Origin: a virus
Length of the DNA: 29,586 nucleotides
Direction: 5' to 3' (one strand)
Virus record (IMG/VR): IMGVR_UViG_3300030406_005472
Location: 1-29,586 of that record
Shown: piece by piece, positions 3,055-28,820 of the stretch
How the letters are laid out: the number at the start of each line of letters is the position of its first letter
How positions within the stretch are numbered: the stretch's first letter is position 1
Notes under the pieces: model-generated
Seen by the model: only the letters and a program-made list of their open reading frames with translations
What the model was told of the DNA's origin: nothing
Databases searched by the model: none
Program-made: the position numbers and the translations under genes

Positions 3055-3639
3055 TTACAGGTATCTACCTTCTAAAACAGTCAGTGAGAAACTTGATCCG
3101 TGGTTGTTTTTTACCTGCTTTTTACACAGCTCCATAAACTCATGGAATCCGGTTTGAAGCACACAACATCCAGCGCTCCATTTGTTAACAAGAGCAGATC
3201 GATCGCCTTTACTAGCACGGTGGATCTGTATTGCCACAGCCTCACCATCATTGTACTCATCAAGCAGCTCATTACGGTTATTATCTCTCCAAACTGATAT
3301 TTTTCTCTTTTGCACCAAACACTCATATTCACCCCGGTGAGATCCAAAAGTAAAAGCCGATCGATATTGATGAGGGTGGACCATGTGAGCTGTTCCTCCT
3401 GTTCTCATCGGGTTCTCCATCCAGTGAGCCCCGGCGTCTAATGTACATGGGTAAATATACTCAAACCATAGACCATTGTGATAATGGACAACATGTAAGA
3501 GATCATCAAATTCGTTAGGTCTGGGTAAAGGATTTCGGGCCCCGATTAAGTTAAGATCGTAGCTCTTTGCAAATGTTTTGAACCCGTGCTCTTCGGCTGC
3601 TAGCAAAATAAGAGGTTTATTAGCATGTATTCTCAACAT
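3055..3639 (-). CDS. Putative lysis enzyme with L,D-transpeptidase-like (YkuD-like) His/Ser-x-Gly-Cys signature
   Basis: A 194-residue soluble protein. The C-terminal half contains 'VWRDNNRNELLDE' (about 116-128), 'IQIHRA' with His140, and 'VNKWSAGCCVLQ' with Ser155-Ala-Gly-Cys158. The His...S-x-G-C arrangement resembles the L,D-transpeptidase/YkuD catalytic site. I also know closely similar 'RD.NRD..LD...INIHR...WSAGCQV' proteins from phage and prophage lysis regions. It probably cuts or remodels peptidoglycan cross-links at the end of infection. There is no signal peptide, so it would need the neighbouring holin for export. It starts at ATG 3639 with TAGGA upstream and is followed by small membrane proteins. 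Family assignment is from motif memory only. Confidence 0.6.
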   Translation of the reverse strand: MLRIHANKPLILLAAEEHGFKTFAKSYDLNLIGARNPLPRPNEFDDLLHVVHYHNGLWFEYIYPCTLDAGAHWMENPMRTGGTAHMVHPHQYRSAFTFGSHRGEYECLVQKRKISVWRDNNRNELLDEYNDGEAVAIQIHRASKGDRSALVNKWSAGCCVLQTGFHEFMELCKKQVKNNHGSSFSLTVLEGRYL

Positions 3640-5248: not shown

Positions 5249-6106
5249 TTAGGTAATGTTAACATCAGCTGTTTCTGATATGCTTTCATGTTGCTGTATA
5301 ACATCGACCTCTATCTCGTGACGATTAACAAACGGTAAAGGATCATAACCGCCCGTAAATGGAGGCGTAGTGCTGTCCTCAGTCGGTAAAGTTTGAGGAT
5401 CGCGCCTAATCCCATCAAAGGATCGATGAAAAGCAAACAGAGCGCTCAAATCAACAAATAGACGAATATCCAGGCTAAACAAAAACCCCCTTTCATTGGT
5501 GACAATGTTTTGACCAATATCACCAGCTGGACGCCGTAAACACAAAGGCCAAAATCGATAGTGTCTTAAAAATGTTCGTCTTTTGTAATTAAAAGCGATC
5601 TTGTTTTTCAAAGATATCGTGCCTCCTGCTGATGTGATATGTGCAACCGAGGTAATTTTATTTTGCTCGCGTAAGCTCGCCGGGCTCTCTGTTTCAATTG
5701 TTACATAATCGTTAACAGTCGGTATTATAGACCCTGCAAAGTCGGTAAAAGGGTTAGAGGCGCAGCCAACAGATTGCTCGCCTGTTCTTGGCCTTTTTGA
5801 CAATGGAAAAGCATAAGCTTTGTCAGAGTCTGCACAAAAACCAACCACTCCACCGCGATCAAGATGATTTTGCATGGCTACAAACTGGATCGCCAGATCC
5901 TCAGATCCAACCATCCGATCGCGCTGTATATTCACGATCTCTCTTGTCCGACCTACAGATCTAGACATGCCCCCGTCACGATAATCTGCATCAACCGCGT
6001 CAACAGTGTAATCACTAAACAGCTCACCAATCATCTCACCGAGATCGATCGTAACCAGTCTTGAGGCATCAGGTTGAGGATAATAAAAGAATTTCGAATT
6101 GCCCAT
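5249..6106 (-). CDS. Distal tail / minor tail protein
   Basis: A 285-residue protein encoded directly downstream of the tape measure, the usual place for the distal tail protein that caps the tube and joins it to the tip. Its N-terminus ('MGNSKFFYYPQP', then 'VTIDLGEMIGEL') resembles short tail-tube-end proteins, and it contains 'NDYVTIETESPAS' and a basic stretch around 'NYKRRTFLRHYRFW'. I chose ATG 6106, which overlaps the tape-measure stop (TAAC ATG). The longer alternative would begin with TTG at 6142 inside the upstream gene and is unlikely. The functional call is positional. Confidence 0.65.
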   Translation of the reverse strand: MGNSKFFYYPQPDASRLVTIDLGEMIGELFSDYTVDAVDADYRDGGMSRSVGRTREIVNIQRDRMVGSEDLAIQFVAMQNHLDRGGVVGFCADSDKAYAFPLSKRPRTGEQSVGCASNPFTDFAGSIIPTVNDYVTIETESPASLREQNKITSVAHITSAGGTISLKNKIAFNYKRRTFLRHYRFWPLCLRRPAGDIGQNIVTNERGFLFSLDIRLFVDLSALFAFHRSFDGIRRDPQTLPTEDSTTPPFTGGYDPLPFVNRHEIEVDVIQQHESISETADVNIT

Positions 6107-6107
6107 G

Positions 6108-8786
6108 TTAATTACCAAAGAGAGGTGATGTTGATTGTCCAAAAGTTTGAAAGCGGCGCTCTATTTGCCTAACAAGTTCATCAACCGCATTACGCTCAAC
6201 GACCTGAGCATTTATAACAATGTTAACCGCGCTAGATCCACTCATGACCCGATCCACGCTTTGGGGTCTTCGACCGCTTTCTGGAACCACAAACTCGTTT
6301 TTATGTAACAGATGCAACCCGGCATTTGATCCAGTAAACATACCAGATCTAGCAGATGGGATCCGGCCGCCTGAGCGCATTCCTTCAAAGGCAATATCAC
6401 CCACGACACCTAACCGCCTCAAAAACTCATCAAGTCCTGAGGTTCTTCGATCTTGACGATCAGATCGGCGCTCTTGACGTCCTTCTCTTGTAAAGATGCT
6501 TTTGAAAAAAGTTAAAATTTGATTGATCCGTTCAGCAAAAGCTTTGGCTATACCAAAAATTAGAGCATCCGCAAAGATCGCCAATATGCGCGGCAGTGTT
6601 TTGAATAAAATATCAGGCAATACTTGAAGGCCGAGCTGGATCGCTTTGGCCCGTGCTCGTGCTTCATCTTCTACAGATTTAATTATTTCCCCTTTTGTGC
6701 TACCTCTTTGTCCTAAACTAGCAGCTAGCTGTAATACACCAAGGGCAGCTCCTATTCCAACCCCAATTTTTCCGGCTTTGGCTATCAGTGAGGATCCGAC
6801 ATTTGCAGCAAATTCCTTGGAGCCTTCTTTGGTTTTTGCTAATCCTTTTGTAAACCCAAAAGTGATTTTTTTATTGATCTCTAGAAGCTTGTTTACCCCA
6901 TTGTTAAAAGTGACAGCAAATTGAGTTAACATTTGTTGGAGTGGTGTCGACTCAAGAAAGCTTTGGCCCTCTTTGCCTAATTTGCTAATCAAATTAGTAA
7001 TTAAAACATTAAATTCTAAACCTGTTTTTGTTATTTTTGTATGAAAGAATTTAGCCAAGTCAATGATCCCACCATGTAAATGACTAAAGAATTCATCTGT
7101 TGATTTTTGTTGATCACTTGAAAGCATATGTAGGAAGCTTTGACCTAATAAATCGACCTCTTTTATTATCTCTCTGATCTTTTGGGGTCTAAAAAATTCA
7201 GGAATTCCAATCGTTGCAAACACCCGATCAAAGATACGCATGCGCTCAGCCACAAGATCGATCGAATCTGCTAATTTTTCAACATCTTTAGATCCGTCTT
7301 TGAGATCATCACCAAAGCCCTTCACATTCTTTCTATTCTGCGACATTAGATCATTAAAGGCATCTAAAGCACTCTCAGCGCCACTCATGGCCGTTTGTAT
7401 TACCTCAAAACCTTCAACAGTGTTAATGTCAAAGCTTTTCTGTAGATCAGTTAATATATTCTGAAAATCAGAAAGTTGATCTTTAAAGTTTTTCGGGATC
7501 TCTGAACTTCCGAATGGATTAGCAGCTGTTTGTACATTGATCCCTCTTTGCTGTAATAGATTGGTTTGCGGCACCTCAATAACATTTGATTTTGTAAGTT
7601 TATCAAGTCCAGTTAACCCTCTACCACCTAATCCTTTTGAAAGTTGAGAAACAGTTTCTGTTATATCGCCAGCAGAAGTTTTTATTTGCTCAATCATATC
7701 CATTAAGCTGATCATAATCTCCAATGTTTTGATTAAAGGCGTTAACATTTTATGAATTAACGCCTGTGATGCAATCAAAATGTTATTGACAAGACCTTTG
7801 ATCCCTTTTGACGCATCTGATGTACCAGCCAAAGAAACCGTGAAAAATCTCAAAACATCTAGAGCTAGATCATTTAGACGATCGCCGCCTGTGACAATAT
7901 CAGATTGAAACTCTTCGAGAGCGGCTTTAACACCAGCAGCCACAGCCATGGCGACATTCATGGCTCGTGAAAACATGTCGATGAGTCCAAGACTTTCAAC
8001 AAAACTTTGTTTAAGTCCTCCTACTGATACATTCAAAAGACTAATCGAATCCTGAAAAGTCGCCGCCGATTTTGCTGCTTTTGGTGATGCTTTTGCCCCA
8101 AACTCATCAACAAAAGCCAAAAACTTATCAAAATCACCCGCGCCAAGTGCTTGGCTGAGTTGTTGACCGCCTCGACCCAGCAACTCAAGAGCCGCGCGCG
8201 ATCTTAATGATGTGTCTTCCATGCCCTGGATCAAATGTAGTGTGTCCACCAATATATCATTATTTGATCTGAGCTCTCCTGTGTTTTCTCGGATCTGGAT
8301 CCCGTATTTTTTAAAAGCCTTCTCTGTTTCTCCGCTGCCTTTTGATAATAGCGCTAATCTTTTAGCTGTTACATCTAGGACAGACACAACATTAGATGCC
8401 TCCTGTCCTGAGGCTTGGAACGCTGCTTTTAACGCCCCCACAGTGGAAGCGGCTACACCTGATCTGTTTCCAATATCGCCGAGATCGTTGATCATATCAA
8501 CAGAGTTTATGGTCATTTCTTTTATAGACCCGGCGAGATCTTTAACTGTGCCGATTAATTTAACAAAACCAAAACCTAGGGCAGCAACTCCACCAACAGC
8601 TGCGATCGCTCCAAGTTTAACTTTTGAAAAACCGCCCGTTATTCTTTGGGTCGAGTCCTCAGCGCGCGCCGCCGTTTTTGTTAACTGAGATCTTAACTCT
8701 TTTGTTTCTCGTTCAGTCTTTTGGATTGAGTCAACAGCCCCAGTCGTGTTAACCTTTAAAATGTATTCAACAACACTTCGCGCCAT
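6108..8786 (-). CDS. Tail tape measure protein
   Basis: An 892-residue protein, the longest tail gene, just after the two overlapping assembly-chaperone frames. The N-terminus is a coiled coil ('KTERETKELRSQLTKTAARAED'), followed by hydrophobic segments ('GAIAAVGGVAALGFGFVKLIG', about 58-78) and a long helical Ala/Ser/Leu-rich body with further hydrophobic patches near 680-700 and 740-760. The C-terminus has 'GSNAGLHLLHKNEFVVPESGRRPQSVDRVM', a motif typical of tape-measure tails. It scaffolds tube polymerisation and sets tail length. By the usual rule of about 0.15 nm per residue, the tail would be about 130 nm. No lysozyme or peptidase domain is evident. Confidence 0.92.
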   Translation of the reverse strand: MARSVVEYILKVNTTGAVDSIQKTERETKELRSQLTKTAARAEDSTQRITGGFSKVKLGAIAAVGGVAALGFGFVKLIGTVKDLAGSIKEMTINSVDMINDLGDIGNRSGVAASTVGALKAAFQASGQEASNVVSVLDVTAKRLALLSKGSGETEKAFKKYGIQIRENTGELRSNNDILVDTLHLIQGMEDTSLRSRAALELLGRGGQQLSQALGAGDFDKFLAFVDEFGAKASPKAAKSAATFQDSISLLNVSVGGLKQSFVESLGLIDMFSRAMNVAMAVAAGVKAALEEFQSDIVTGGDRLNDLALDVLRFFTVSLAGTSDASKGIKGLVNNILIASQALIHKMLTPLIKTLEIMISLMDMIEQIKTSAGDITETVSQLSKGLGGRGLTGLDKLTKSNVIEVPQTNLLQQRGINVQTAANPFGSSEIPKNFKDQLSDFQNILTDLQKSFDINTVEGFEVIQTAMSGAESALDAFNDLMSQNRKNVKGFGDDLKDGSKDVEKLADSIDLVAERMRIFDRVFATIGIPEFFRPQKIREIIKEVDLLGQSFLHMLSSDQQKSTDEFFSHLHGGIIDLAKFFHTKITKTGLEFNVLITNLISKLGKEGQSFLESTPLQQMLTQFAVTFNNGVNKLLEINKKITFGFTKGLAKTKEGSKEFAANVGSSLIAKAGKIGVGIGAALGVLQLAASLGQRGSTKGEIIKSVEDEARARAKAIQLGLQVLPDILFKTLPRILAIFADALIFGIAKAFAERINQILTFFKSIFTREGRQERRSDRQDRRTSGLDEFLRRLGVVGDIAFEGMRSGGRIPSARSGMFTGSNAGLHLLHKNEFVVPESGRRPQSVDRVMSGSSAVNIVINAQVVERNAVDELVRQIERRFQTFGQSTSPLFGN

Positions 8787-9524: not shown

Positions 9525-9667
9525 TGTTTCTCCTGTTGTGAGGTGTATAGATTTTTAACATATCAATGATCTTTTATAAAGTTTTTTGAATTATTTTATG
9601 ATTTACCCTGCAGGATATAAAATGATAGATTATAATAAAGTATAACCAATCAACAACAGGAGCTTCC
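9525..9667. promoter_or_regulatory. Divergent promoter/leader region between chaperone (minus) and 81-residue gene (plus)
   Basis: A 143-base AT-rich gap. On plus, TATAAT at 9631-9636 is followed by the shared leader AAAGTATAACCAATCAACA then ACAGGAG, placing the start codon 31 bases after the -10; no good -35 is visible. On minus, ACACCTCACAACAGGAG precedes the chaperone ATG, with AT-rich sequence but no clear hexamers. No other gene fits in the gap. Confidence 0.5.
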
Positions 9668-15773: not shown

Positions 15774-15853
15774 AATTTAACCCTGACTTTATATACTACA
15801 AAATTCAACTCTTTACAATTATAGATTTATTATTGGTTAATTTTATATATTAC

Positions 15854-16458: not shown

Positions 16459-16504
16459 GACAATCAAAATCGTGATTGAGGGAGTGATCGCGGTTTTGGT
16501 TGTC
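16459..16504. terminator. Long inverted repeat between the island and the portal gene, possible terminator/RNA stem
   Basis: GACAATCAAAATCGTGAT (16459-16476) pairs with 16487-16504 over 18 bp with three G-T wobbles on the plus strand and a 10-base loop. It separates two convergent genes (stops 16450 and 16503). It lacks a clean T run, so intrinsic termination is uncertain. It could stabilise 3' ends or end transcripts with factor help. Confidence 0.5.
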
Positions 16505-19500
16505 ATGTTTCGTCTTGTTCCCATGTTGGCAAATCATCAACATTGTTAATAACTGGAATGATAGTGCAACGACAATTAACATCAAGAGCAGGATCACCAA
16601 AATCCGCAGGAGATGGAGCATAGAGACCTTCACTTTCAAACTCTTCATTGACTCCGATAATTGTTCCATCAAGTTCAACATGTGCATCTCTTACCCTTGA
16701 ATCACGAGAGCTTAACCATTGCTTTTGAACATTGACCCCGTTTTCATTTGCTATCCGATAAGCTTGATCAGTTGCTGTATTCACTGCTTTTGTGCTTTCA
16801 GTCCGTGCAATCCTTAACGATCTAGCAGCCGAGAAAGCTAAGTTTGTTTCTAAAGTTTTGGCTATATCTTCAACAGCTGCCCCAGCTATGAGGCCTTTTT
16901 CAATAACCTCAGAGACTTTGTTGATCGTTGTTTCTGTCATTTGCTCGGCCGCGGTTGAGGATATTTGAACAGCTAAATCTCTTCTTCCAAAGATCAGATC
17001 TAAAGGCCTTGTTTCATTTGCCAGTTTGAACACCCGATCAAGTTCTGAATTACCCGTTAACTCAAACCATTTCAAAAAGCGCGGCTGATATCCCAACTCT
17101 AAGAGCTTCTTTTCTGTTGCTCTTTGCTCTTCAACCACACTCAACAAAAGATCAGGATCTGTATTCTCCAAGATTTTTAAGAACCTAAACTTTGCTCCTT
17201 TGAGATAACCATTTAAAGCTCTTCTAAGATCATCCTCAACTTTCTTTTGTGATCGCTCTACCCAGCTGTGCCACATCCGCGATCGCTCTTCATTGTCAAA
17301 GCTTTTTTCATTGTTGTCGAGTTTCTTCTTTAAAACCCTTAAGACCTCTTTCATCCTGATCTCGCCAATCTCACCGATCGCGAGCCATTTGATTTGTGCA
17401 ACTATACCAGCTACAGTCGAGATATTCACCGGGTGATTTTGATCTTTGAATTGAGATCCGTCTTTAAAGTGTCGAGCGATCCAAGCCTCTCTTAATCTGA
17501 TCGCTTCTTCCTCTGCTTTGCTCGTTGGCACGCCGTTATTTTTTACTATAGGCCTGAGCTTTCTGAATTGCTCATTTCCTTTGATGTTCCCCCCTGCTCT
17601 CCATATCTGCGGATATTGATCCTTCAGTTTTTCGGCATAATCAAGATCAAAGATTGGATATTGTGAGTTTCTCAAACTCACCTTTAGATCGTCGCCGCGT
17701 TTCGGGAAATTAGTTATTTCTGAATTTTTTTTTTCGGCTTCAAAATCTAGATATACGGGCATAAGCTTTTGTGGCTCTTCTCCTAATTTATTGTAATATC
17801 TAACGATCACCCGATAGGCTTTTTCTCTTTCCTCCTCCGTGATCCCGAGTCGACCCTCAACACCATTGAGCAGATCAACAGCTCGACTTAACATATCAAG
17901 ATAAACAATCAAATATCCTTTATCGGGAGCGGCGTTAACTGGATCGTTTTCATCATATCGACGTGCAATTAATAACATGTATCCGTCAAAGGATTGATCT
18001 TGTTGATCATTGTACAAACAATGAGCCGCTTTAAATCGCTCCCAGTTTGGAGGACGACCAAGAACAGATCTGATAATATCATCTTTGTCTTGTTGTTGTG
18101 GATTGGAGGGATCTTTTGAAACAGGTAAATCAGCAAAATCAACATCAAAAGATTTATGAAAATCAACAAGATATAGCTTTTCGTCCTTGCTCATCGGGTG
18201 ATCTTTAGGTAGTAGATCAGTATCATGTTGACCGGATCGATATCGTCCGTTTCTAAGAGCATAAAGAAAGCTGTTTACTCTAGCCATGGCCCATTGTTGT
18301 GCGCTTGTCACAGAAGGCCTAACGGAGGACGGATTATTTTGATATGCCCCTAATCCTCTATGATAAGACACAGCTAAATAATTTTTATTTGTAAGTTTCT
18401 TTGCTTTATTGTTCCCGTGTTCTTCGTTGTGATCTTTGGCTTTCTTTTTAAGTGCGTTCTGTGTTCCCTCTGGCAGATCATCCATGGCCTCTTTTGCGTT
18501 TGACTTATCACCAAAATCAACAGCTTTAAAAATAGCGCTGAGCATTCTAACATTTTCTTCCTCTTCATCTCCGATCAAAGATGGATCTTTCTGAACCGAT
18601 GGAAACTCCAAACCCTCAGCCGCATAAGCTGCCTGGGGATCTATGCCGTTTAAAATGTGGATTTGGACACGATTGAGCTGCTCAGTTCTCACTGTTTGCA
18701 GCGCCTCAACACCAGAATAATCATGCTCAACTCGATAATCAGGGTTAAACCCTTTCGCGATTATTGTCAAAAGCTCGCCGAGCTGTTTACCTTTTTTGAT
18801 TTGATTGGTCCAATAATTCATCGCCTGTTGTCTACTGGTCGCATAGTTAGCAGCGGGTAAACCGAGCACGGTCGGAGGTATACCCAAAACCGCAGATATT
18901 GATTCACGCGCCATTCTTCGTGATGCTTCAAATTCCATTTCGCGCGGTGAGAGTTGTAATTCTCTAACCTCAACTTGACCACTCAACACAAGAGCGCCGC
19001 CCTTTGTCGCTAAACCTGAATATTGATCGGCTATTTGTCGTCTAGTCTCACTCGGCCAAATGTCACCGTCTTCTTTGGGATAAAGCAGAATATCGGGGCG
19101 CCCTTTCGCTGATGCATCTGAGGCTAACTTTTGAGCGTTAAGATCGGCGTCAATTTCTCGACTGAGCGCCTCAACCGCGCCACACCCATAAACACTTTGG
19201 CTTCCTTTGGCATAACTGTAGTTTTTCCCGTGGATCACCCTTTCAACGGGATACATAACAACGGATCCTGAGCTGTTATGCTCGTATCCTGTGATCCCCT
19301 GTTTCGGATCTGTAACAATCCTGACCTCATCCGGATGCAGTCGTATAAGAGAAACAGGCTGATTGTCTCGAGGGCCTAATTTTAAAATGTAACAGTTACC
19401 CGCTAACATCAGATCAGTTAAAAGCGACTCCCTAAAGCTGAATCCGCTTTCTTTGGAATTTGGTTGATTGAGCAGATCAATAAAGTCAGATTCCAAAACC

Positions 19501-19775
19501 TCTTCTGTGTTCGCGCCTTTTCCTTTCAAAAGCTTGATCGGTAAAGCGGCGAGATCCTGAGCTGATCTTTTAGCCGCAGCATGTGTATAGCCGTGGATCC
19601 CGTAAGCTTTAAGAGAGGCGCCTTGAGAATAGGTAGGTTTAACACCCGCGGGAGATGCCCATGACGCGCCTCTGTTTTCCTCTTTAGGTTTGTTAACTTG
19701 GAGCGCGTATCCTTTACCCGTGATCGCAGTCCATAACCTAATAAAATAATTATCTCGTTTGACTATATCAGACAT
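16503..19775 (-). CDS. Portal protein fused to an unusual middle region and a C-terminal MuF-like head morphogenesis domain
   Basis: A 1090-residue fusion. Residues about 45-395 are an HK97-type portal ('THAAAKRSAQDLAALPIKLL', 'LMLAGNCYILKLG', 'MARESISAVLGIPPTVLGL', 'DYSGVEAL'). Residues about 435-530 hold a conserved-looking module ('NPSSVRPSVTSAQQWAMARVNSFLYALRNGRY..G.HDTDLLPKDHP'). About 575-670 hold another ('FKAAHCLYNDQQDQSFDGYMLLIA...VRYYNKL'). About 700-870 are charged helices. About 940-1078 are MuF-like ('RSLRIARTESTKAVNTATDQAYR', 'WLSSRDSRVRDAHVELDG', 'DPALDVNCRC'). Portals usually stand alone at 400-500 residues, so this single chain combines the DNA gate and an internal head protein, with extra modules. 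The start is ATG 19775 behind AGAGG. Domain borders are by eye. Confidence 0.88.
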   Translation of the reverse strand: MSDIVKRDNYFIRLWTAITGKGYALQVNKPKEENRGASWASPAGVKPTYSQGASLKAYGIHGYTHAAAKRSAQDLAALPIKLLKGKGANTEEVLESDFIDLLNQPNSKESGFSFRESLLTDLMLAGNCYILKLGPRDNQPVSLIRLHPDEVRIVTDPKQGITGYEHNSSGSVVMYPVERVIHGKNYSYAKGSQSVYGCGAVEALSREIDADLNAQKLASDASAKGRPDILLYPKEDGDIWPSETRRQIADQYSGLATKGGALVLSGQVEVRELQLSPREMEFEASRRMARESISAVLGIPPTVLGLPAANYATSRQQAMNYWTNQIKKGKQLGELLTIIAKGFNPDYRVEHDYSGVEALQTVRTEQLNRVQIHILNGIDPQAAYAAEGLEFPSVQKDPSLIGDEEEENVRMLSAIFKAVDFGDKSNAKEAMDDLPEGTQNALKKKAKDHNEEHGNNKAKKLTNKNYLAVSYHRGLGAYQNNPSSVRPSVTSAQQWAMARVNSFLYALRNGRYRSGQHDTDLLPKDHPMSKDEKLYLVDFHKSFDVDFADLPVSKDPSNPQQQDKDDIIRSVLGRPPNWERFKAAHCLYNDQQDQSFDGYMLLIARRYDENDPVNAAPDKGYLIVYLDMLSRAVDLLNGVEGRLGITEEEREKAYRVIVRYYNKLGEEPQKLMPVYLDFEAEKKNSEITNFPKRGDDLKVSLRNSQYPIFDLDYAEKLKDQYPQIWRAGGNIKGNEQFRKLRPIVKNNGVPTSKAEEEAIRLREAWIARHFKDGSQFKDQNHPVNISTVAGIVAQIKWLAIGEIGEIRMKEVLRVLKKKLDNNEKSFDNEERSRMWHSWVERSQKKVEDDLRRALNGYLKGAKFRFLKILENTDPDLLLSVVEEQRATEKKLLELGYQPRFLKWFELTGNSELDRVFKLANETRPLDLIFGRRDLAVQISSTAAEQMTETTINKVSEVIEKGLIAGAAVEDIAKTLETNLAFSAARSLRIARTESTKAVNTATDQAYRIANENGVNVQKQWLSSRDSRVRDAHVELDGTIIGVNEEFESEGLYAPSPADFGDPALDVNCRCTIIPVINNVDDLPTWEQDET

Positions 19776-21651: not shown

Positions 21652-22095
21652 CTACTCATCAAGATCAATTACAGGATCATCAATAAGATCTTGAAGCTCC
21701 ACATCGATCTGTTTGACCTGTTGGATTAGCTGGGTAATGCTTGCTTCTTTTGCGTCTATCTGTAGCACGACCTCAGGCTCTTTTCTTTGTCGTCCAAAGT
21801 CATCCGGAAAACGGCGCTCTAAGATCCAGGCAGATGCTTGCCATGTCCCATTGTTAGCAGCTTTTTGAATCAAAGCCATGTTAACCAAAGCAGCTTTTGA
21901 CATCGCTTTATTTACAGTCTCCATAAATTCAAAATACTCGCCGGTGCCTTCTTTATGTCCTCTGTTGATCCAATTGTAAAAAGTTGATGGTGTGATCCCT
22001 GCATATTTTGACGCGAGATCGATGGTCATATTGAGCTCCAAAGCTTGAACAAATAGCCGAGTTACAGCAGGTGTTAACTTTGATCGGCGGGCCAT
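21652..22095 (-). CDS. terS: Small terminase subunit (TerS)
   Basis: A 147-residue protein. The N-terminal helix-turn-helix is 'SKLTPAVTRLFVQALELNMTIDLASKYAGITPSTFYNWINRG' (about 5-46), typical of phage TerS that recognise packaging sites. Central helices ('MSKAALVNMALIQKAANNGTWQASAWILERRFPDDFG', about 66-100) match the common TerS oligomerisation core, 'A...LerR.Pd.yg'. The acidic C-terminus may bind TerL. ATG 22095 sits inside the 3' end of the methyltransferase gene behind GAGGAGGAG, a 22-base overlap. The cos/pac site would be expected nearby but is not recognisable by eye. Confidence 0.9.
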   Translation of the reverse strand: MARRSKLTPAVTRLFVQALELNMTIDLASKYAGITPSTFYNWINRGHKEGTGEYFEFMETVNKAMSKAALVNMALIQKAANNGTWQASAWILERRFPDDFGRQRKEPEVVLQIDAKEASITQLIQQVKQIDVELQDLIDDPVIDLDE

Positions 22096-24026
22096 GTCTC
22101 CTCCTCTAATCTTTCGATTTTGAGTTTATCTATCTCTACAATTTCAGCTCCCGCCGCATGACTAATTCTTTGTAGGCATATATCAGCATAATCGCTATCC
22201 TTTTCTATTCCTATCGATCTGAAACCCTCAAGACTTGAAGCTACGCCAGTTGTTCCCGATCCTAAGAAAGGCTCTAAGACAAGACCGTTAACGGGTGTCA
22301 CAAGGCGAATGAGCCAACGCATCAGATTGACAGGCTTGACGGTAGGATGGAAATTTTTAACCTCGCCCGCTGTTCTTCCTGCTCCTGCCCTTGGATTATC
22401 TACCCCCGCCGATCCTTCTTTGCGGTTAACAGCATCAAACCCAGCTATAGCCTCAAGATCTGCAAGTCCCTGCTCACGCTCTGATCGTGATGGTTTTGGA
22501 CACTGGTAAAGGTTAGCGGGCCATCGGCCTAGAGCGTGGGGCTTTGGAGCCTCTACCATTTTGTAATTTTGATCTTTATTGCTCTCAAAATGCCCTCTTT
22601 TATTTCTTATTCTGCCTGCCGGCATGGCTGGATCTTGCGGCCCTATCCAACAAGGATCACCATAACCAAACCGACATGCATCAATATTGATCGCCCCCGT
22701 CCCAGACTTCAAAACTTGACTTGCTACATTTTTTTCAGCGATTGGTTTTCGAGCAAGCACACAAGGCTCATAAGCGGGTTTTAAGGCAGTCCCCCAGCCT
22801 TCCCAATATTGCGCCTCTTTGGTGGCTGGTTTTGTTATATCAAAAGATTTGTTTTTATGATACTCAATAAGATCAGCATCACGTTCTCCACATGCAACAG
22901 TTCCACCCAAAGAAGATTTTTTTGATCCTACAACTTCTCTTTCTGCTTCAACCCTTTTTATTTCTTCATCATATCTATCATCAAGATCAAGTATCTCTTT
23001 CATCTTCTCCCAATGTTCTAATGTTGGATATTCAGGTTGTGATCTTCCTACCCAATGACCAACCATGCCATTAGTACCACAATGACGATCTATATCTTTC
23101 TGTGTTAGATTTGCCTTCTTTATTGCTGATCTAAGATATTCTCTAAAATCATCATCAGGCTTTGGTGATCTACCATTCATCTTATCTATCTGCTTAGAGA
23201 TATCCATACTCTTAGGGAATCCAGAGTAATAACACCAACCAAGCTGATCCCTTATCTCAAAACCTGCATCCTCAACCGCAACCGCTAACCTGTGAACTGT
23301 TCTTGTGGCAGCAAAGCAAATCAGATGTCCGCCATCTTTCAAGACCCTCAAACACTCTCTAGCCCATTCTTCAGAAGGTACGCTGTGATCCCAGTCCCTC
23401 GACATGAACCCAATACCATAAGGCGCATCTGTTACAATAGAATCCACGCTGTTATCAGGCAAAGAGCGCATAACCTCAACGCAATCACCGCATGCGACCT
23501 GTTGCCCGCCGATCTGATAAACACCGCCTGTCTTCGCAATCTTAACCGATTCAGAGGGCATTTGATCCCAGTCCTGATCATCAAGATCGCCCTCTATCAC
23601 ATTGTCAAGTTGATCAACCTGAGCTTCTTGGATCAGCTCATCAAGCTCGGCATCAGAAAAACCGATCCCGGTCAAATCCGCATCTTTGAGATCTGTCAAA
23701 ACCTCACTTAGCAGATCCTGATCCCAGTCTGCAATCTCACCGATCTTATTGTCTGCTAGAGCTAGCAGCTGCGCCTCTGTAGGATCGAGATCAACAAAAC
23801 GCACGGGTACTACATCAATATTCAAAACCCGCGCGGCTGCTAGGCGAGTGTGGCCCGCGATTACCATTTTGTCTTTTTTTCTCGCTATGATCGGAGATGC
23901 AAACCCAAAACGCTTGATCGACTTTGCGACCTCTTCAACCGCATGATCGTTTTTTCTTGGGTTATTTTTCCATTCTTTGAGATCTGATATTGGTGTATAT
24001 GTTCCGATTGATTCATTCTCATCCAT
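22074..24026 (-). CDS. ParB-domain DNA methyltransferase (beta-class N6-adenine/N4-cytosine) fusion
   Basis: A 650-residue fusion. About 8-115 are a ParB/Srx-like domain ('TPISDLKEWKNNPRK', 'VIAGHTRLAAARVL', 'TEAQLLALADNKIGE'). The methyltransferase follows, with motif IV 'TDAPYGIGF' (199-207) before motif I 'EPFLGSGTT' (585-593), the beta-class order for amino-methyltransferases. Residues about 290-345 are an inserted segment with a helix-turn-helix look ('HCGTNGMVGHWVGRSQPEYPTLEHWEKM'), which I recall from other phage enzymes of this type, as is 'WGTALKPAYEPCVLARKP' (411-428). The target is unknown. ATG 24026 lies behind GAGGTGG. It likely protects phage DNA from restriction or marks it; location next to TerS also allows a packaging link. 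Confidence 0.93.
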   Translation of the reverse strand: MDENESIGTYTPISDLKEWKNNPRKNDHAVEEVAKSIKRFGFASPIIARKKDKMVIAGHTRLAAARVLNIDVVPVRFVDLDPTEAQLLALADNKIGEIADWDQDLLSEVLTDLKDADLTGIGFSDAELDELIQEAQVDQLDNVIEGDLDDQDWDQMPSESVKIAKTGGVYQIGGQQVACGDCVEVMRSLPDNSVDSIVTDAPYGIGFMSRDWDHSVPSEEWARECLRVLKDGGHLICFAATRTVHRLAVAVEDAGFEIRDQLGWCYYSGFPKSMDISKQIDKMNGRSPKPDDDFREYLRSAIKKANLTQKDIDRHCGTNGMVGHWVGRSQPEYPTLEHWEKMKEILDLDDRYDEEIKRVEAEREVVGSKKSSLGGTVACGERDADLIEYHKNKSFDITKPATKEAQYWEGWGTALKPAYEPCVLARKPIAEKNVASQVLKSGTGAINIDACRFGYGDPCWIGPQDPAMPAGRIRNKRGHFESNKDQNYKMVEAPKPHALGRWPANLYQCPKPSRSEREQGLADLEAIAGFDAVNRKEGSAGVDNPRAGAGRTAGEVKNFHPTVKPVNLMRWLIRLVTPVNGLVLEPFLGSGTTGVASSLEGFRSIGIEKDSDYADICLQRISHAAGAEIVEIDKLKIERLEEETWPADQS

Positions 24027-24297
24027 TTTCCACCTCTTCAATTGCATCAAAGAAATCGTCTAATATTGCCCGGTTAGCTGCAATCATTAGATCCTGCGGT
24101 GTTTGATTACAATATGGAGCTAGGACCTCAAGAACACGCCAAAGAGTTTGGTCCTTTGGTCTTTCTTTGGTTGGTTTAGTTGCCCATCTCCATAAACATG
24201 GCCATGTGATCTGTGCTTGTCTACACAGCTCGCTTTTATTGATTGAGCAACTAGCAAGCTCGATCTGCTCTTGTAAAAATCGATTAAAATTGGTCAT
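24019..24297 (-). CDS. Cro/XRE-like helix-turn-helix DNA-binding protein
   Basis: A 92-residue protein. 'SINKSELCRQAQITWPCLWRWATKP' (about 18-42) reads as a helix-turn-helix of the Cro/XRE type, and the following 'TLWRVLEVLAPYCNQTPQDLM' fits the remaining helices of such a domain. The acidic C-terminus is 'DDFFDAIEEVENG'. It may act as the only visible transcription regulator, controlling late genes or its own operon. ATG 24297 follows AACAGGAG by 6 bases. Its stop overlaps the methyltransferase start. No repressor-cleavage (LexA-like) domain, so it is not a classical lysogeny repressor. Confidence 0.7.
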   Translation of the reverse strand: MTNFNRFLQEQIELASCSINKSELCRQAQITWPCLWRWATKPTKERPKDQTLWRVLEVLAPYCNQTPQDLMIAANRAILDDFFDAIEEVENG

Positions 24298-24308: not shown

Positions 24309-24572
24309 TTATAATTTTCGATCTGTGAGTTGATGAAGGCTTTTGATCATGACCGCATGCGGATCTTCATTGTTGTATTTGTTCCAATCGGCTTTTGAGC
24401 ATAGGATCGCTCCGTCTTGGAGATGAAAACGGAATCGTTTATGACATTTTCCATTTTTATGGATGTGAAATACTTGTATTTCTTGAATTAGACCCTCAGC
24501 TCCGCATGTCCAATCACGATCCATTTCTTGAATAATTTGGTTTGCTGTTCTTCTCGTTATTTTGGTAATCAT
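24309..24572 (-). CDS. Hypothetical protein
   Basis: An 87-residue protein with 'MITKITRRTANQIIQEMDRDWTCG', a His/Lys-rich stretch ('VFHIHKNGKCHKRFRFHLQDG') and a C-terminal 'DPHAVMIKSLHQLTDRKL'. Two Cys and several His could bind metal, but no finger pattern is clear. It overlaps the upstream annealing-protein gene by 4 bases (start 24572, stop 24569) so it is translationally coupled. It may work with that recombination protein. No family recognised. Confidence 0.65.
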   Translation of the reverse strand: MITKITRRTANQIIQEMDRDWTCGAEGLIQEIQVFHIHKNGKCHKRFRFHLQDGAILCSKADWNKYNNEDPHAVMIKSLHQLTDRKL

Positions 24573-24919
24573 TGATCACCCCCCAACTCATCAATACAAG
24601 TGAGACCAACAGCACAATAAGACCTGAGCGCCCTGGCGATCGCTCTTGTCTCAGCCATGCGGATCAAATGAGGCGCGATCATTCGGTTAACATTCTTTGG
24701 AGAGGCATCGCCAAAACCGGAATAGGTGCCTTCTTTACCTGATACTGTTGCTTTGAAAATCGCTAAACCAGTCTCTTGATTGAGCTCAATGAGCTCTGTT
24801 TGGATTGAATTCATCCCCATGTTTCTAGCCAAGACTTGAAGGCCACTATAGAGGACAAAGTCTTTTCCTTGAAGGTTTATAATAAATCCAGCTTCTTTGA
24901 GTTGTTCAATATTCGACAT
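24569..24919 (-). CDS. Putative single-strand annealing protein, Rad52-like motif
   Basis: A 116-residue protein. 'GTYSGFGDASPKNVNRMIAPHLIRMAETRAIARALRSYCAVG' (about 65-106) resembles the Rad52-family pattern of a 'GyG' loop, then an 'A...A.TRA..RALR..G' helix; similar small phage proteins are known to me only as hypotheticals. The N-terminal 'MSNIEQLKEAGFIINLQGKDFVLYSGLQVLARNMG' could be the first strands and helices. I set ATG 24919 because CACCAAACAACAACAGGA lies directly before it; a longer upstream reading would cover the 3' end of the previous gene. It could pair with the exonuclease at 28251 in recombination or replication. The family call is tentative. Confidence 0.55.
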   Translation of the reverse strand: MSNIEQLKEAGFIINLQGKDFVLYSGLQVLARNMGMNSIQTELIELNQETGLAIFKATVSGKEGTYSGFGDASPKNVNRMIAPHLIRMAETRAIARALRSYCAVGLTCIDELGGDQ

Positions 24920-24947
24920 TTTTTTTCCTGTTGTTGTTTGGTGTTGA

Positions 24948-25208
24948 TTAGGTGTTTCTGACTTTTCTAATTTGATATTCAGGTCTCTCATACTCACCAT
25001 GGTCCAAGATGTATTGACCATCTGTTGCCCATGTTGAGCCTTTGAAATTATCAGTGATGCCGAGATCGATTAGATATTCTTCGGCTTCTTTTTTGCTGTT
25101 AAAGGTTAACTTTCGATCCCACCCATCGCACATGGCCCGATCTTTTGGGGCGTGGAAAGTATTGTTATAGTAAAAGAATTTTTTCAAGATGTAGTATTTG
25201 GTTTTCAT
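24948..25208 (-). CDS. Hypothetical small basic/aromatic protein
   Basis: An 86-residue protein rich in Tyr, Lys and Asp ('MKTKYYILKKFFYYNNTFHAPKDRAMCDGWDRKLTF', then 'SKKEAEEYLIDLG'). 'F.SKKEAEEYL..LG' looks like a short helical element of phage-encoded small proteins that read 'A.eyl'. No family recognised. It starts a transcript with a good sigma70 promoter (25237-25265) and the shared CACCAAACAACAGGA leader. Next is the annealing protein with the same leader, so these belong to one early operon. Confidence 0.68.
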   Translation of the reverse strand: MKTKYYILKKFFYYNNTFHAPKDRAMCDGWDRKLTFNSKKEAEEYLIDLGITDNFKGSTWATDGQYILDHGEYERPEYQIRKVRNT

Positions 25209-26392: not shown

Positions 26393-27052
26393 TTATTGTT
26401 CAAGATTGTGGTGTTTTTTATGGCAATAGGTACAAAGCACACATAGATCCTCAGGATCCTCTCGTCCTAATCGATCATAGGTGTTGTGATGGACATCAAG
26501 ACGGCATTGGGAAGCGCTACACACCTGACAACGATATCCAGCTCTTTTTAAAGCAATCTTTCTCTTCTTTTTCCAAGTTTGGCTGTTTAGATATGCTGAG
26601 TAGTCACCACGATCGATCTCCTCTGGGACATGATCATGCTCTTCCCAATCAACCAGAAAAGCACGATGCGCCTTGATCTTAAGATTGTTTGAACAGTTTG
26701 AACACTCGCGATCATAGTCTCCTCGACGGCTGGTTTTTCGCGCGGTAAACTCAGAACCACAAGAGCGACAAGTAGCTCTAAAACAGATCGGCCCTGCGAC
26801 ATGCTGCATCTTAGACGGGCTAACATCGGTTAGCTCGTGGATCTTATTGGCTGATAATTTTGAATACCAATAAAGGTAACGAACCAATTCATTTATCCCA
26901 TCCTCATCAGCCTGAGCTCGAAAATCATTGATTGACTCGGTGAGATACTTTTGATGTAGATCTCTCAACTCCTCTAGATATTGTAAATTATCATCAAGCA
27001 AATCTAGCATTTTAAGATTATCTACTATTTTGAGCTGTGCTGGTCTACCCAT
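26393..27052 (-). CDS. HNH endonuclease with two extra Cys knuckles
   Basis: A 219-residue protein. About residues 88-120 hold Cys-x-x-Cys pairs ('CFRATCRSCGSEFTARKTSRRGDYDRECSNCSNN'), a zinc ribbon. The C-terminus is an HNH nuclease: 'SQTWKKKRKIALKRAGYRCQVC', then 'RLDVHHNTYDRLGREDPEDLCVLCTYCHKKHH', with paired Cys, the His-His of the first catalytic strand, Asn/Asp and terminal His. The N-terminus is a helical, acidic domain. It may nick DNA for replication, recombination or packaging. Unlike many phage HNH enzymes it is not beside the terminase. ATG 27052 overlaps the previous stop (TAATG). Confidence 0.85.
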   Translation of the reverse strand: MGRPAQLKIVDNLKMLDLLDDNLQYLEELRDLHQKYLTESINDFRAQADEDGINELVRYLYWYSKLSANKIHELTDVSPSKMQHVAGPICFRATCRSCGSEFTARKTSRRGDYDRECSNCSNNLKIKAHRAFLVDWEEHDHVPEEIDRGDYSAYLNSQTWKKKRKIALKRAGYRCQVCSASQCRLDVHHNTYDRLGREDPEDLCVLCTYCHKKHHNLEQ

Positions 27053-27702
27053 TAGACCCTCCCCGTAAAGATTCCGAATTTTTTATTTAAATCATGCAAT
27101 ATCGTAGCTAATGGTTTTTCCTGATGTCCGTTTTTAGCCTCAAAAACTTGATCCCAATATTCTTTGTTTGGCATGTAGTGCTCTGACATTGGAATTTTTT
27201 GCTTGTGCTCTGTTTGGATCCACGGCTCTTTTAAAAGGTTTTCTTTCCTTTGTAGGATCTCAAGTCCCTTTTTCAAGCTTAAAATGCCCATGCTTTTTTT
27301 CTTTTTGCCAGCCTCACAAGAGCAACTCGCGTAAATTTGTTGCATCCGTGGCATGTCTTTAACTAGCTCCCAATAATGAATTAAGATCAGGCCCTTATCG
27401 CATCGATCACAGTCCTGATAAACTGTTTTGAGCTTGGAGTTACCGATAAACTTTCTCATTGATTTGACGATCAAACCAGCCGGGGGCGGAAACTCTCTCT
27501 CACATGTTGCAATGTATTTGCCCGCAGCTGCTGTTATGGCCTCGGGTTTGGTTTCTGCGAAAGCGGATCTAAACACCAATTCAAGCTGAGTTACCCATTC
27601 GTCATTTGATCGTAATATGCTCCAATTCGTTTGAATCATCGCGGCGGCATGTTGACAAGCTCTCACATGGATTGGTGTGCCATATCTGTATTCTTCACTC
27701 AT
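27052..27702 (-). CDS. Zinc-binding replication protein, probable helicase loader
   Basis: A 216-residue protein encoded directly after the initiator, the order of lambda O-P. The N-terminal half is helical ('CQHAAAMIQTNWSILRSNDEWVTQLELVFRSAF', 'FPPPAGLIVKSMRKF'). The middle carries 'CDRCDKGLILIHYW...ASCSCEAGKKKK' (about 98-137), a Cys-x-x-Cys plus Cys-x-Cys pattern often found in phage replication and loader proteins. No Walker motif, so it is not an AAA+ loader of the DnaC type; it could be a P- or G39P-like loader that brings host helicase to the initiator. ATG 27702 is behind AACAACAGGAG. Role inferred from order and the zinc motif. Confidence 0.6.
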   Translation of the reverse strand: MSEEYRYGTPIHVRACQHAAAMIQTNWSILRSNDEWVTQLELVFRSAFAETKPEAITAAAGKYIATCEREFPPPAGLIVKSMRKFIGNSKLKTVYQDCDRCDKGLILIHYWELVKDMPRMQQIYASCSCEAGKKKKSMGILSLKKGLEILQRKENLLKEPWIQTEHKQKIPMSEHYMPNKEYWDQVFEAKNGHQEKPLATILHDLNKKFGIFTGRV

Positions 27703-27719
27703 TTTTTTCTCCTGTTGTT

Positions 27720-28178
27720 TTAAAAGTCGATTTTGAAATTATCCTCTATTAAGTAAATATTAGTTTTTAGTTTGTTGTTTTGTTTAGTATATATAGATCG
27801 CTCATCATGTGATCTTTCTGGATTGCTCCTCATGTTGATTGATCCGGATGAGTCACCATGTGAGCTGTATAATGTGTCACCATGTGATTGATCTACAACT
27901 AGAGTGATGATCGCCGATATTGATGGTCTTCTTTTGATTGTCAGGAGATCGCGCGCTTTTAGGCCGTTTAAGCCTCGTCTTATTGTAGCAGGAGAACAGC
28001 ACATAATCTGTGATAGATAGGCTAATCCTTTATTGTAAGTGGTTGTTATGGTGTATTTATCAACCCTAAGGAATCCTCCATATCTTAAGCCGAGAAAGAC
28101 CTTAAGCTCAGCGGGTTTGAGATCAGCTATAAGTTGAAGATCCGGAAAAAATAACCGGGCATGTTTGGACTTGGACAT
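27720..28178 (-). CDS. Replication initiator with winged helix, lambda O-like gene containing iterons
   Basis: A 152-residue protein. 'LKPAELKVFLGLRYGG' (about 20-35) and 'GLAYLSQIMCCSPATIRRGLNGLKARDLLTIKRR' (about 51-84) form a winged helix typical of phage initiators and DnaD/RepO-like N-termini. The C-terminal part (about 97-130) has a repeated 'SHGD' motif because the gene itself carries iterons, as in lambda O. The last 20 residues are a separate polar segment. ATG 28178 follows ACAACAGGAGCC, with promoter TTTACA-17-TATAAT upstream. It likely binds the iterons, opens the adjacent AT-rich tract and recruits the loader encoded next. Confidence 0.72.
   Translation of the reverse strand: MSKSKHARLFFPDLQLIADLKPAELKVFLGLRYGGFLRVDKYTITTTYNKGLAYLSQIMCCSPATIRRGLNGLKARDLLTIKRRPSISAIITLVVDQSHGDTLYSSHGDSSGSINMRSNPERSHDERSIYTKQNNKLKTNIYLIEDNFKIDF
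27721..27887. other. Putative replication origin: iterons plus AT-rich unwinding tract
   Basis: Repeats of TCACCATGTGA at 27853-27863 and 27877-27887, TCATCATGTGA at 27802-27812, and a degenerate copy around 27828-27838 (CATGTTGA). The shared CATGT cores start at 27806, 27831, 27857 and 27881, spaced 25, 26 and 24 bases. Next to them, 27721-27800 has only 17 G/C in 80 bases, a good DNA-unwinding element. Iterons inside the initiator gene and an AT-rich stretch beside them repeat the lambda ori design. Confidence 0.68.
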
Positions 28179-28221: not shown

Positions 28222-28250
28222 ATTATAAACCGCTCTTTTATAGGTGTAAA
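28222..28250 (-). promoter_or_regulatory. Sigma70-like promoter of the minus (early-late) unit
   Basis: On the minus strand TTTACA (28250-28245), exactly 17 bases, TATAAT (28227-28222). A second TATAAT lies a few bases downstream. The leader CACCACTCAAACAACAACAGG leads to the initiator's ATG at 28178. The promoter sits at the divergence point; its -35 touches the exonuclease start codon at 28251. Confidence 0.7.
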
Positions 28251-28820
28251 ATGATTTTATGTTTTTTTGATACTGAGACAACAGGGTTAAACCATAACAA
28301 ACATGAAATTATTGAGTATTCAATCATTGTCCACATCAACGATGTTGAAAAGTTTAGACGCACGCGGCGAGTCAAACCTTTAAGAATCAATGAAGCTGAT
28401 CCTGAGGCTTTGAAAATTAACGGTTTTGACCCTCGTAAATGGATCAATCCAGAGCACCCAAATAAAACAGCAGATTTTTTTACGGAGCTAATATACCAAT
28501 ATCCTGAGATGATATTTGTCGGCCACAATGTACAGTTTGACCTAGCCTTTTTGAAAAAATTATGTCGAGACTATCATCCAAACTTTTGGATTAAGAACCG
28601 TTATATTGATACGAAGTGTTTGGCAATTGCCACACTGTTTCCTCTTGGCCTAAAAAGCGCCAAACTGGACGAGATTAGGCGCTTTCTCGATTGGACCTGC
28701 ATAAATAGTCATCGAGCTGAAAAAGACTGCGAGGATGCACGGGATCTTTTTTATCTTTGCCGTAAAGATTTAAACTCCTTTGATTGTAAATATCCAAGAG
28801 ACCGGATAGAATTCACTTGA
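28251..28820 (+). CDS. DEDDh 3'-5' exonuclease (DnaQ-like)
   Basis: A 189-residue stand-alone exonuclease. Exo I is 'FFDTETTGL' (Asp7, Glu9), Exo II 'GHNVQFDLAFL' (Asp97), Exo III 'HRAEKDCEDA' (His154, Asp159), all four acidic residues plus the DEDDh histidine present. It would trim single-stranded or mismatched 3' ends in phage replication or work with the annealing protein in recombination; or degrade host nucleic acid. It is the first gene of the plus unit, divergent from the initiator. No polymerase is encoded, so it is not a proofreading domain of a phage enzyme. ATG 28251 lies 7 bases after TAGGTG. Confidence 0.92.
   Translation: MILCFFDTETTGLNHNKHEIIEYSIIVHINDVEKFRRTRRVKPLRINEADPEALKINGFDPRKWINPEHPNKTADFFTELIYQYPEMIFVGHNVQFDLAFLKKLCRDYHPNFWIKNRYIDTKCLAIATLFPLGLKSAKLDEIRRFLDWTCINSHRAEKDCEDARDLFYLCRKDLNSFDCKYPRDRIEFT

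Follow-up and report, generated by a model that had tools for sequence, protein, structure and literature searches.

A putative lambda-like replication origin embedded in the gene of its own predicted initiator in a small group of tailed phages

Why would a phage gene for a short, predicted winged-helix protein carry four regularly spaced CATG-core repeats within its own coding sequence, next to an A+T-rich tract? We analysed this locus in a window of 29,586 bases, the whole stretch of viral DNA at hand, which most likely represents a complete, circularly permuted genome, as its ends abut in the related genome G002 and share 5 bases. From sequence comparison, we give a probability of roughly 0.85 to the reading that positions 27715-27887 form a lambda-like phage replication origin that lies within the gene for its initiator. 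The description below relies on the following features.

27720-28178, minus strand: predicted replication initiator of 152 aa (winged-helix model, weak PHROG matches, relatives)
27877-27887, minus strand: iteron 1 in gene order, gene strand TCACATGGTGA, encoding S-H-G-D
27853-27863, minus strand: iteron 2, gene strand TCACATGGTGA, encoding S-H-G-D
27826-27837, minus strand: iteron 3, the weakest, TCAACATGAGGA, in another reading frame and encoding I-N-M-R, without the right TGA half-site
27802-27812, minus strand: iteron 4, closest to the A+T-rich tract, gene strand TCACATGATGA, encoding S-H-D-E
27715-27800, no strand: A+T-rich tract, candidate unwinding element, doubling as coding sequence for the initiator C-terminus
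27052-27702, minus strand: next gene, 216 aa, candidate helicase loader with invariant C98-x2-C101 ... C127-x-C129
28222-28250, minus strand: sigma-70-like promoter TTTACA-17-TATAAT (11/12; consensus match only)
28251-28820, plus strand: divergent neighbour, DnaQ-like 3'-5' exonuclease (PF00929, E 1.5e-14; phrog_192, E 8.5e-29)

The four CATG cores start at 27806, 27831, 27857 and 27881 (spacing 25/26/24), which in gene order, from 27881 to 27806, are gene-strand positions 295, 319, 345 and 370 of the initiator ORF (24, 26 and 25 apart). All four copies lie within the ORF at 27720-28178 on the minus strand, in the 3' third of the winged-helix gene. On the plus strand they read TCATCATGTGA at 27802-27812 and TCACCATGTGA at both 27853-27863 and 27877-27887; the weaker copy, with its CATG at 27831, reads TCAACATGAGGA on the gene strand. 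Repeats 1, 2 and 4 are interrupted palindromes of the form TCA..CATG..TGA, and the third copy lacks the right half. The half-site spacing of the palindromes varies (5, 6 and 8 bases), which is unusual for a strict dimer site. The bare CATGT core is frequent, with 47 occurrences on the plus strand; what stands out is only the longer motif and the way its copies cluster. The entire 29,586-base record contains TCAYCATGTGA three times, always within the cluster, and the reversed pattern used as a control does not occur at all. The original prediction had described CATGT-core repeats with a spacing of 24-26 bases in a winged-helix gene, three of them with this extended motif. The coordinates, the spacing and a clustering above chance were all confirmed, and the extended motif proved unique to the cluster in a search of the whole genome.

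Could the repeats be a mere by-product of a repetitive peptide (S-H-G-D) or of chance? Two of the four copies do encode SHGD. When the codons of the window gene were redrawn synonymously, the observed count of near-identical 11-mer pairs was reached in none of 300 trials; the same test on known origins gave 1/300 for lambda O and 1/300 for the phi80 homologue. For the initiator genes of two relatives, G002 and G004, the excess was modest, as the synonymous null reached the observed pair count in 8/300 and 15/300 trials, respectively, which speaks for the peptide or chance reading. Against it, the remaining copies lie in other frames and encode unrelated peptides, and the motif counts of G002 and G004 were reached in 0/20,000 synonymous trials each, with a motif defined post hoc. 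The three motif matches in the window gene, for which the motif was likewise set post hoc, arose in 8/20,000 trials. The dyad score around CATG distinguished the iteron sites only weakly from other CATG sites.

The comparison with relatives was more informative on this question. Only three genomes of the group are known, the window and the two relatives reached via terminase, G002 (29,591 bp) and G004 (30,770 bp), whose initiator homologues are each 38% identical to the window protein. Both relatives carry three TCA..CATG..TGA repeats at the equivalent location in the gene, with an A+T-rich tract on the equivalent side. In order, these are CCTCAAACATGTCTGAGG, CTCAACATGGTGAG and CCTCAAACATGTCTGAGG in G002 (spacing 27/27), and GTCAACATGTGAC, GTCAACATGGTGAG and GTCACATGGTGAC in G004 (spacing 25/25). 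Clustered regular repeats in the initiator gene beside an A+T-rich tract were thus found in 3/3 genomes, and the pattern TCAN0-2CATGN0-3TGA is confined to the cluster in the entire window, in 26.8 of 29.6 kb of G002 and in 18.8 of 30.8 kb of G004. The original prediction had named a loss of the repeats from homologues that retain the protein as counting against it; both homologues found still have the repeats, the spacing and the A+T-rich tract.

The repeats span different reading frames, and the peptides encoded across the three genomes are SHGD, INMR, SHDE, STCD, VNMV or SNMSED. Between G002 and G004, the iteron-coding linker contained 0 synonymous and 17 nonsynonymous codon changes, as opposed to 28 synonymous and 14 nonsynonymous changes in the DNA-binding domain (Fisher p 1e-6 versus the linker). 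Moreover, the outer palindrome bases differ symmetrically, CCTCA..TGAGG versus GTCA..TGAC (G002, G004). Both arms of the iteron change together, and the dyad is therefore preserved. The substitution pattern of the linker and the preservation of the dyad together suggest that the peptide is free to vary and the DNA is selected. In other words, the sequence comparison indicates that the repeat DNA, not the encoded peptide, is under selection. Because of the frame and substitution data, with palindromes persisting while the linker changed only nonsynonymously, we regard a peptide by-product or chance as extremely improbable.

Searches beyond these three genomes covered several collections. Queries with the initiator, the next gene product and the HNH protein against 2.9 million viral contigs returned only G002 and G004, and the initiator and loader alignments returned none from bacterial and archaeal genomes. 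Fifty further viral records reached via distant terminases contained no initiator match. An iteron-array DNA pattern retrieved 15 stretches from viral contigs, and in the portions read, 0 of them fell within the gene of a winged-helix initiator. The unrelated viral contig L118 has an intergenic array of TTTCAC-N-GTGAAA palindromes at ~20-bp intervals (5920-6160), beside a terminase-small-subunit-like gene.

What kind of protein would bind this array? The 152-aa product consists of a winged helix (residues ~8-98), a predicted disordered linker whose coding DNA contains the repeats, and a short C-terminal segment that contains KQNNK and ends in D-F. AlphaFold modelled the winged helix at moderate confidence (pLDDT mostly 65-86 over residues 11-98), and residues 99-152, where the iterons are encoded, are predicted to be disordered (pLDDT <50). 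The fold matches in the PDB are ordinary winged helices, including the RepA-type staphylococcal plasmid initiators 4pql, 4pt7, 4pta and 5kbj as well as MarR and Crp types. Model and fold matches point, with moderate confidence, to a winged-helix N-terminal DNA-binding domain as found in O-type initiators. A fold search against predicted viral structures gave a weak and mixed result, with many HTH proteins, some annotated as replication initiators or replisome organisers. In O, a C-terminal domain contacts P. In the present initiator, only ~25 residues come after the repeats; they are predicted to be disordered, yet they are conserved between the relatives, and this tail may be a peptide binding the next protein.

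According to the original prediction, the initiator was unrelated in sequence to lambda O. This was correct at the level of BLAST, as tblastn with the window initiator against 50,697 phage records gave no match, but less so for protein families, where weak matches to initiators emerged, one of them to a family containing or near lambda O. The window protein matched phrog_428 'replication initiation protein' (E 0.0022), and the relatives matched phrog_678 'O-like' (E 0.0032 and 0.0071) and phrog_8102 (E 0.0036 and 0.021); lambda O itself matches phrog_678 at E 1.7e-35. The G004 protein also matched PF13730 (HTH_36) below the cut-off. In hhalign, a nine-member O alignment matched with 84% probability over the winged helix only, a value uncalibrated against other winged helices. 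A PDB sequence search with the initiator and loader alignments produced nothing useful. The PHROG E-value of ~0.003 weakly supports membership of the lambda O family; the initiator probably works like O, and its DNA-binding domain is perhaps a distant O cousin.

Winged-helix proteins are mostly regulators, and the closest folds include the MarR and Crp types. The repeats might instead be operator or partition (parS-like) sites of this protein, used for the control of transcription or segregation, with the origin elsewhere. A regular palindrome array would also fit a centromere-like site, and the phage has a ParB-domain gene at 22074-24050. However, the sites occupy the distal 3' part of the gene, at least ~340 bp from the only good promoter (28222-28250), and no repeat is found at that promoter. 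Furthermore, the weak family matches include replication initiators, and the layout is like that of the lambda and phi80 origins. We therefore consider operator or partition sites unlikely.

The resemblance to known phage origins is one of arrangement. As in lambda and phi80, the iterons lie in the initiator gene directly downstream of the DNA-binding domain, in four copies with inverted symmetry. As in lambda (O, P) and phi80 (gp15/gp14), the A+T-rich tract is on the C-terminal side and is followed by a (candidate) helicase loader gene. The lambda O/ori-like iteron origin within an initiator gene, as originally proposed, is well supported by relatives that keep the repeats, spacing and A+T-rich tract. 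In lambda, O binds the origin as a dimer, next to a 40-bp A+T region (PMC5043065). Several differences were also evident. The annotated iteron spacing is 20/24/23 in lambda and 20/21/21 in phi80, and wider, at 24-27, in the present phages. The initiator has 152 aa instead of the 299 aa of lambda O, lacking a counterpart of most of the C-terminal half of O. BLAST detects no similarity to O or P, and the iteron sequence differs. An invariant CxxC...CxC motif sets the next protein apart from lambda P, and the A+T-rich tract is at the extreme 3' end of the gene rather than mid-gene.

Initiator-embedded origins are established in lambdoid phages (PMC7466680; PMC5043065). In pSK41-type plasmids, the origin likewise lies within the rep coding region, and the part of the protein encoded there is dispensable (PMC5703833). 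These RepA_N replicons and the HTH_36 (PF13730) variant pPR9 share with the proposed origin a location inside the initiator gene and a winged-helix/HTH_36 domain, and the predicted fold of the present initiator matches RepA_N structures, among others. Unlike this initiator, the plasmid initiators have a C-terminal domain, in pSK41 also a primase-interaction region; there is no sequence match to RepA_N plasmids, and the present origin would belong to the early genes of a tailed phage. A limited search of the open-access literature found no description of the system of this phage group. What is new here is best read as an initiator-embedded iteron origin in phages whose replication proteins are not closely related to those of lambda.

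The A+T-rich tract and the strand composition fit an origin to different degrees. The predicted 80-base stretch with 17 G/C beside the repeats was found at 27721-27800, at the very 3' end of the gene. Equally A+T-rich 80-mers account for 242 of 29,507 in the window (<1%), with other such tracts at 15812, 25228, 9560, 26229 and 2978. By nearest-neighbour stability, the tract ranks in the bottom 0.2% of 80-mers in the window, and the corresponding tracts of the two relatives in the bottom 0.01% and 0.1%. Its A+T content is no higher than synonymous codon choice for the same peptide gives, and we downgraded the tract as independent evidence because codon choice accounts for its composition. Cumulative GC skew is lowest at 27712, and in the relatives a local turning point lies at or within ~0.3 kb of the homologous gene. 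This agrees with the proposed origin but is supportive only and not independent, because transcription diverges close by. The predicted promoter at 28222-28250 directs into the initiator gene and therefore through the repeats; in lambda, transcription through or near the origin is required (PMC5043065). A single DnaA box (TTWTNCACA) was found, at 3120 and distant from the repeats, and none in the parts of the relatives that were read.

The gene next to the initiator had been called a P-like zinc protein. Four invariant cysteines (CxxC...CxC) are present, but the proposed identity was not substantiated: the product of 27052-27702 has no Pfam or NCBIfam match and no significant PHROG match, and hhalign of its very shallow alignment against lambda P covered a 14-column stretch only, EREFPPPAGLIVKS versus NRPFLPSPGQFVAW, with a probability <1%. 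In this stretch the FPPPAG motif aligns on FLPSPG of lambda P, without significance. The structure model (mean pLDDT 39) was too poor to use. The 216-aa protein, a candidate helicase loader, is 57-58% identical to its relatives and occupies the equivalent position in 3/3 genomes.

How might such an origin fire? The winged-helix initiator would bind the four interrupted TCA-CATG-TGA palindromes ~25 bp apart, probably with one dimer at each site, and the resulting assembly would strain and then open the A+T-rich tract beside iteron 4. Either the next gene product or the C-terminal segment of the initiator would then guide the host replicative helicase to the opened tract, leaving the rest of replication to host primase and polymerase. 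Repeat binding, dimerisation on the DNA, melting and helicase recruitment are thus all presumed steps of this model. More tentatively, the locus could be a minimal replication module, comprising a winged-helix-only 152-aa initiator, an origin-holding linker, a tail peptide and a zinc-motif loader unlike known loaders, in which iterons and specificity would co-change quickly and the DNA need would override the linker sequence.

The remainder of the genome is compatible with reliance on the host. Scanning the main ORFs against Pfam and PHROG identified terminase, portal-MuF, protease, capsid, tail, endolysin-like, methylase, HNH and exonuclease genes, and no polymerase, primase or helicase, as had been predicted; some small ORFs had no match at all. 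Because the genome is apparently complete, it is fair to infer that the phage depends on host replication proteins. The gene order of initiator, 216-aa protein and HNH protein, with the DnaQ-like exonuclease on the opposite strand, is conserved in 3/3 phages. Identity to the relatives is 90% for terminase, 60% for the loader, 53% for the exonuclease and 38% for the initiator. The replication module of the window thus diverges faster from G002 and G004 than do the genes for terminase and capsid, a pattern expected for module exchange or a joint change of initiator and iterons. Joined through a 5-base overlap of its ends, the record closes into a circle, with respect to which the relatives are permuted. 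This fits headful packaging and could suggest another cis site, such as a packaging (pac) or recombination site. Such a site is very improbable here, as the terminase genes are 6-8 kb off (19.8-22.1 kb) and the repeats stay with the initiator gene.

With the proposed origin, the lambda-type layout would no longer be confined to lambdoid phages and RepA_N plasmids. The three genomes also provide a clean case in which a DNA signal appears to dictate how the stretch of protein that it encodes evolves. With a small, self-contained initiator, binding, melting and helicase recruitment become addressable with two proteins and <1.3 kb of DNA.

We also made several minor observations on this genome. 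A DnaQ-like exonuclease gene adjoins the candidate origin in 3/3 genomes, in a phage without a detected DNA polymerase, and its product could act with the host polymerase. The minus-strand gene at 22074-24050 combines a ParB-type N-terminal domain with an N4/N6 DNA methylase in a single 658-aa protein, and a portal protein is fused to a Mu gpF-like protein in the 1090-aa ORF at 16503-19775 (minus strand). A conserved small protein encoded at 24569-25021 (minus strand), with GDASPKNV...MIAPHLIRMAETRAIARALR, matches only a PHROG of unknown function; its motif is presumably reminiscent of single-strand annealing proteins. Finally, we counted 12 copies of the extended ribosome-binding-site-like string CAACAGGAG, several of them immediately 5' of genes, at 27717, 28194, 28864, 26328, 26119, 25802, 21580, 15739 and 9538 on the minus strand and at 9654, 16195 and 28942 on the plus strand.
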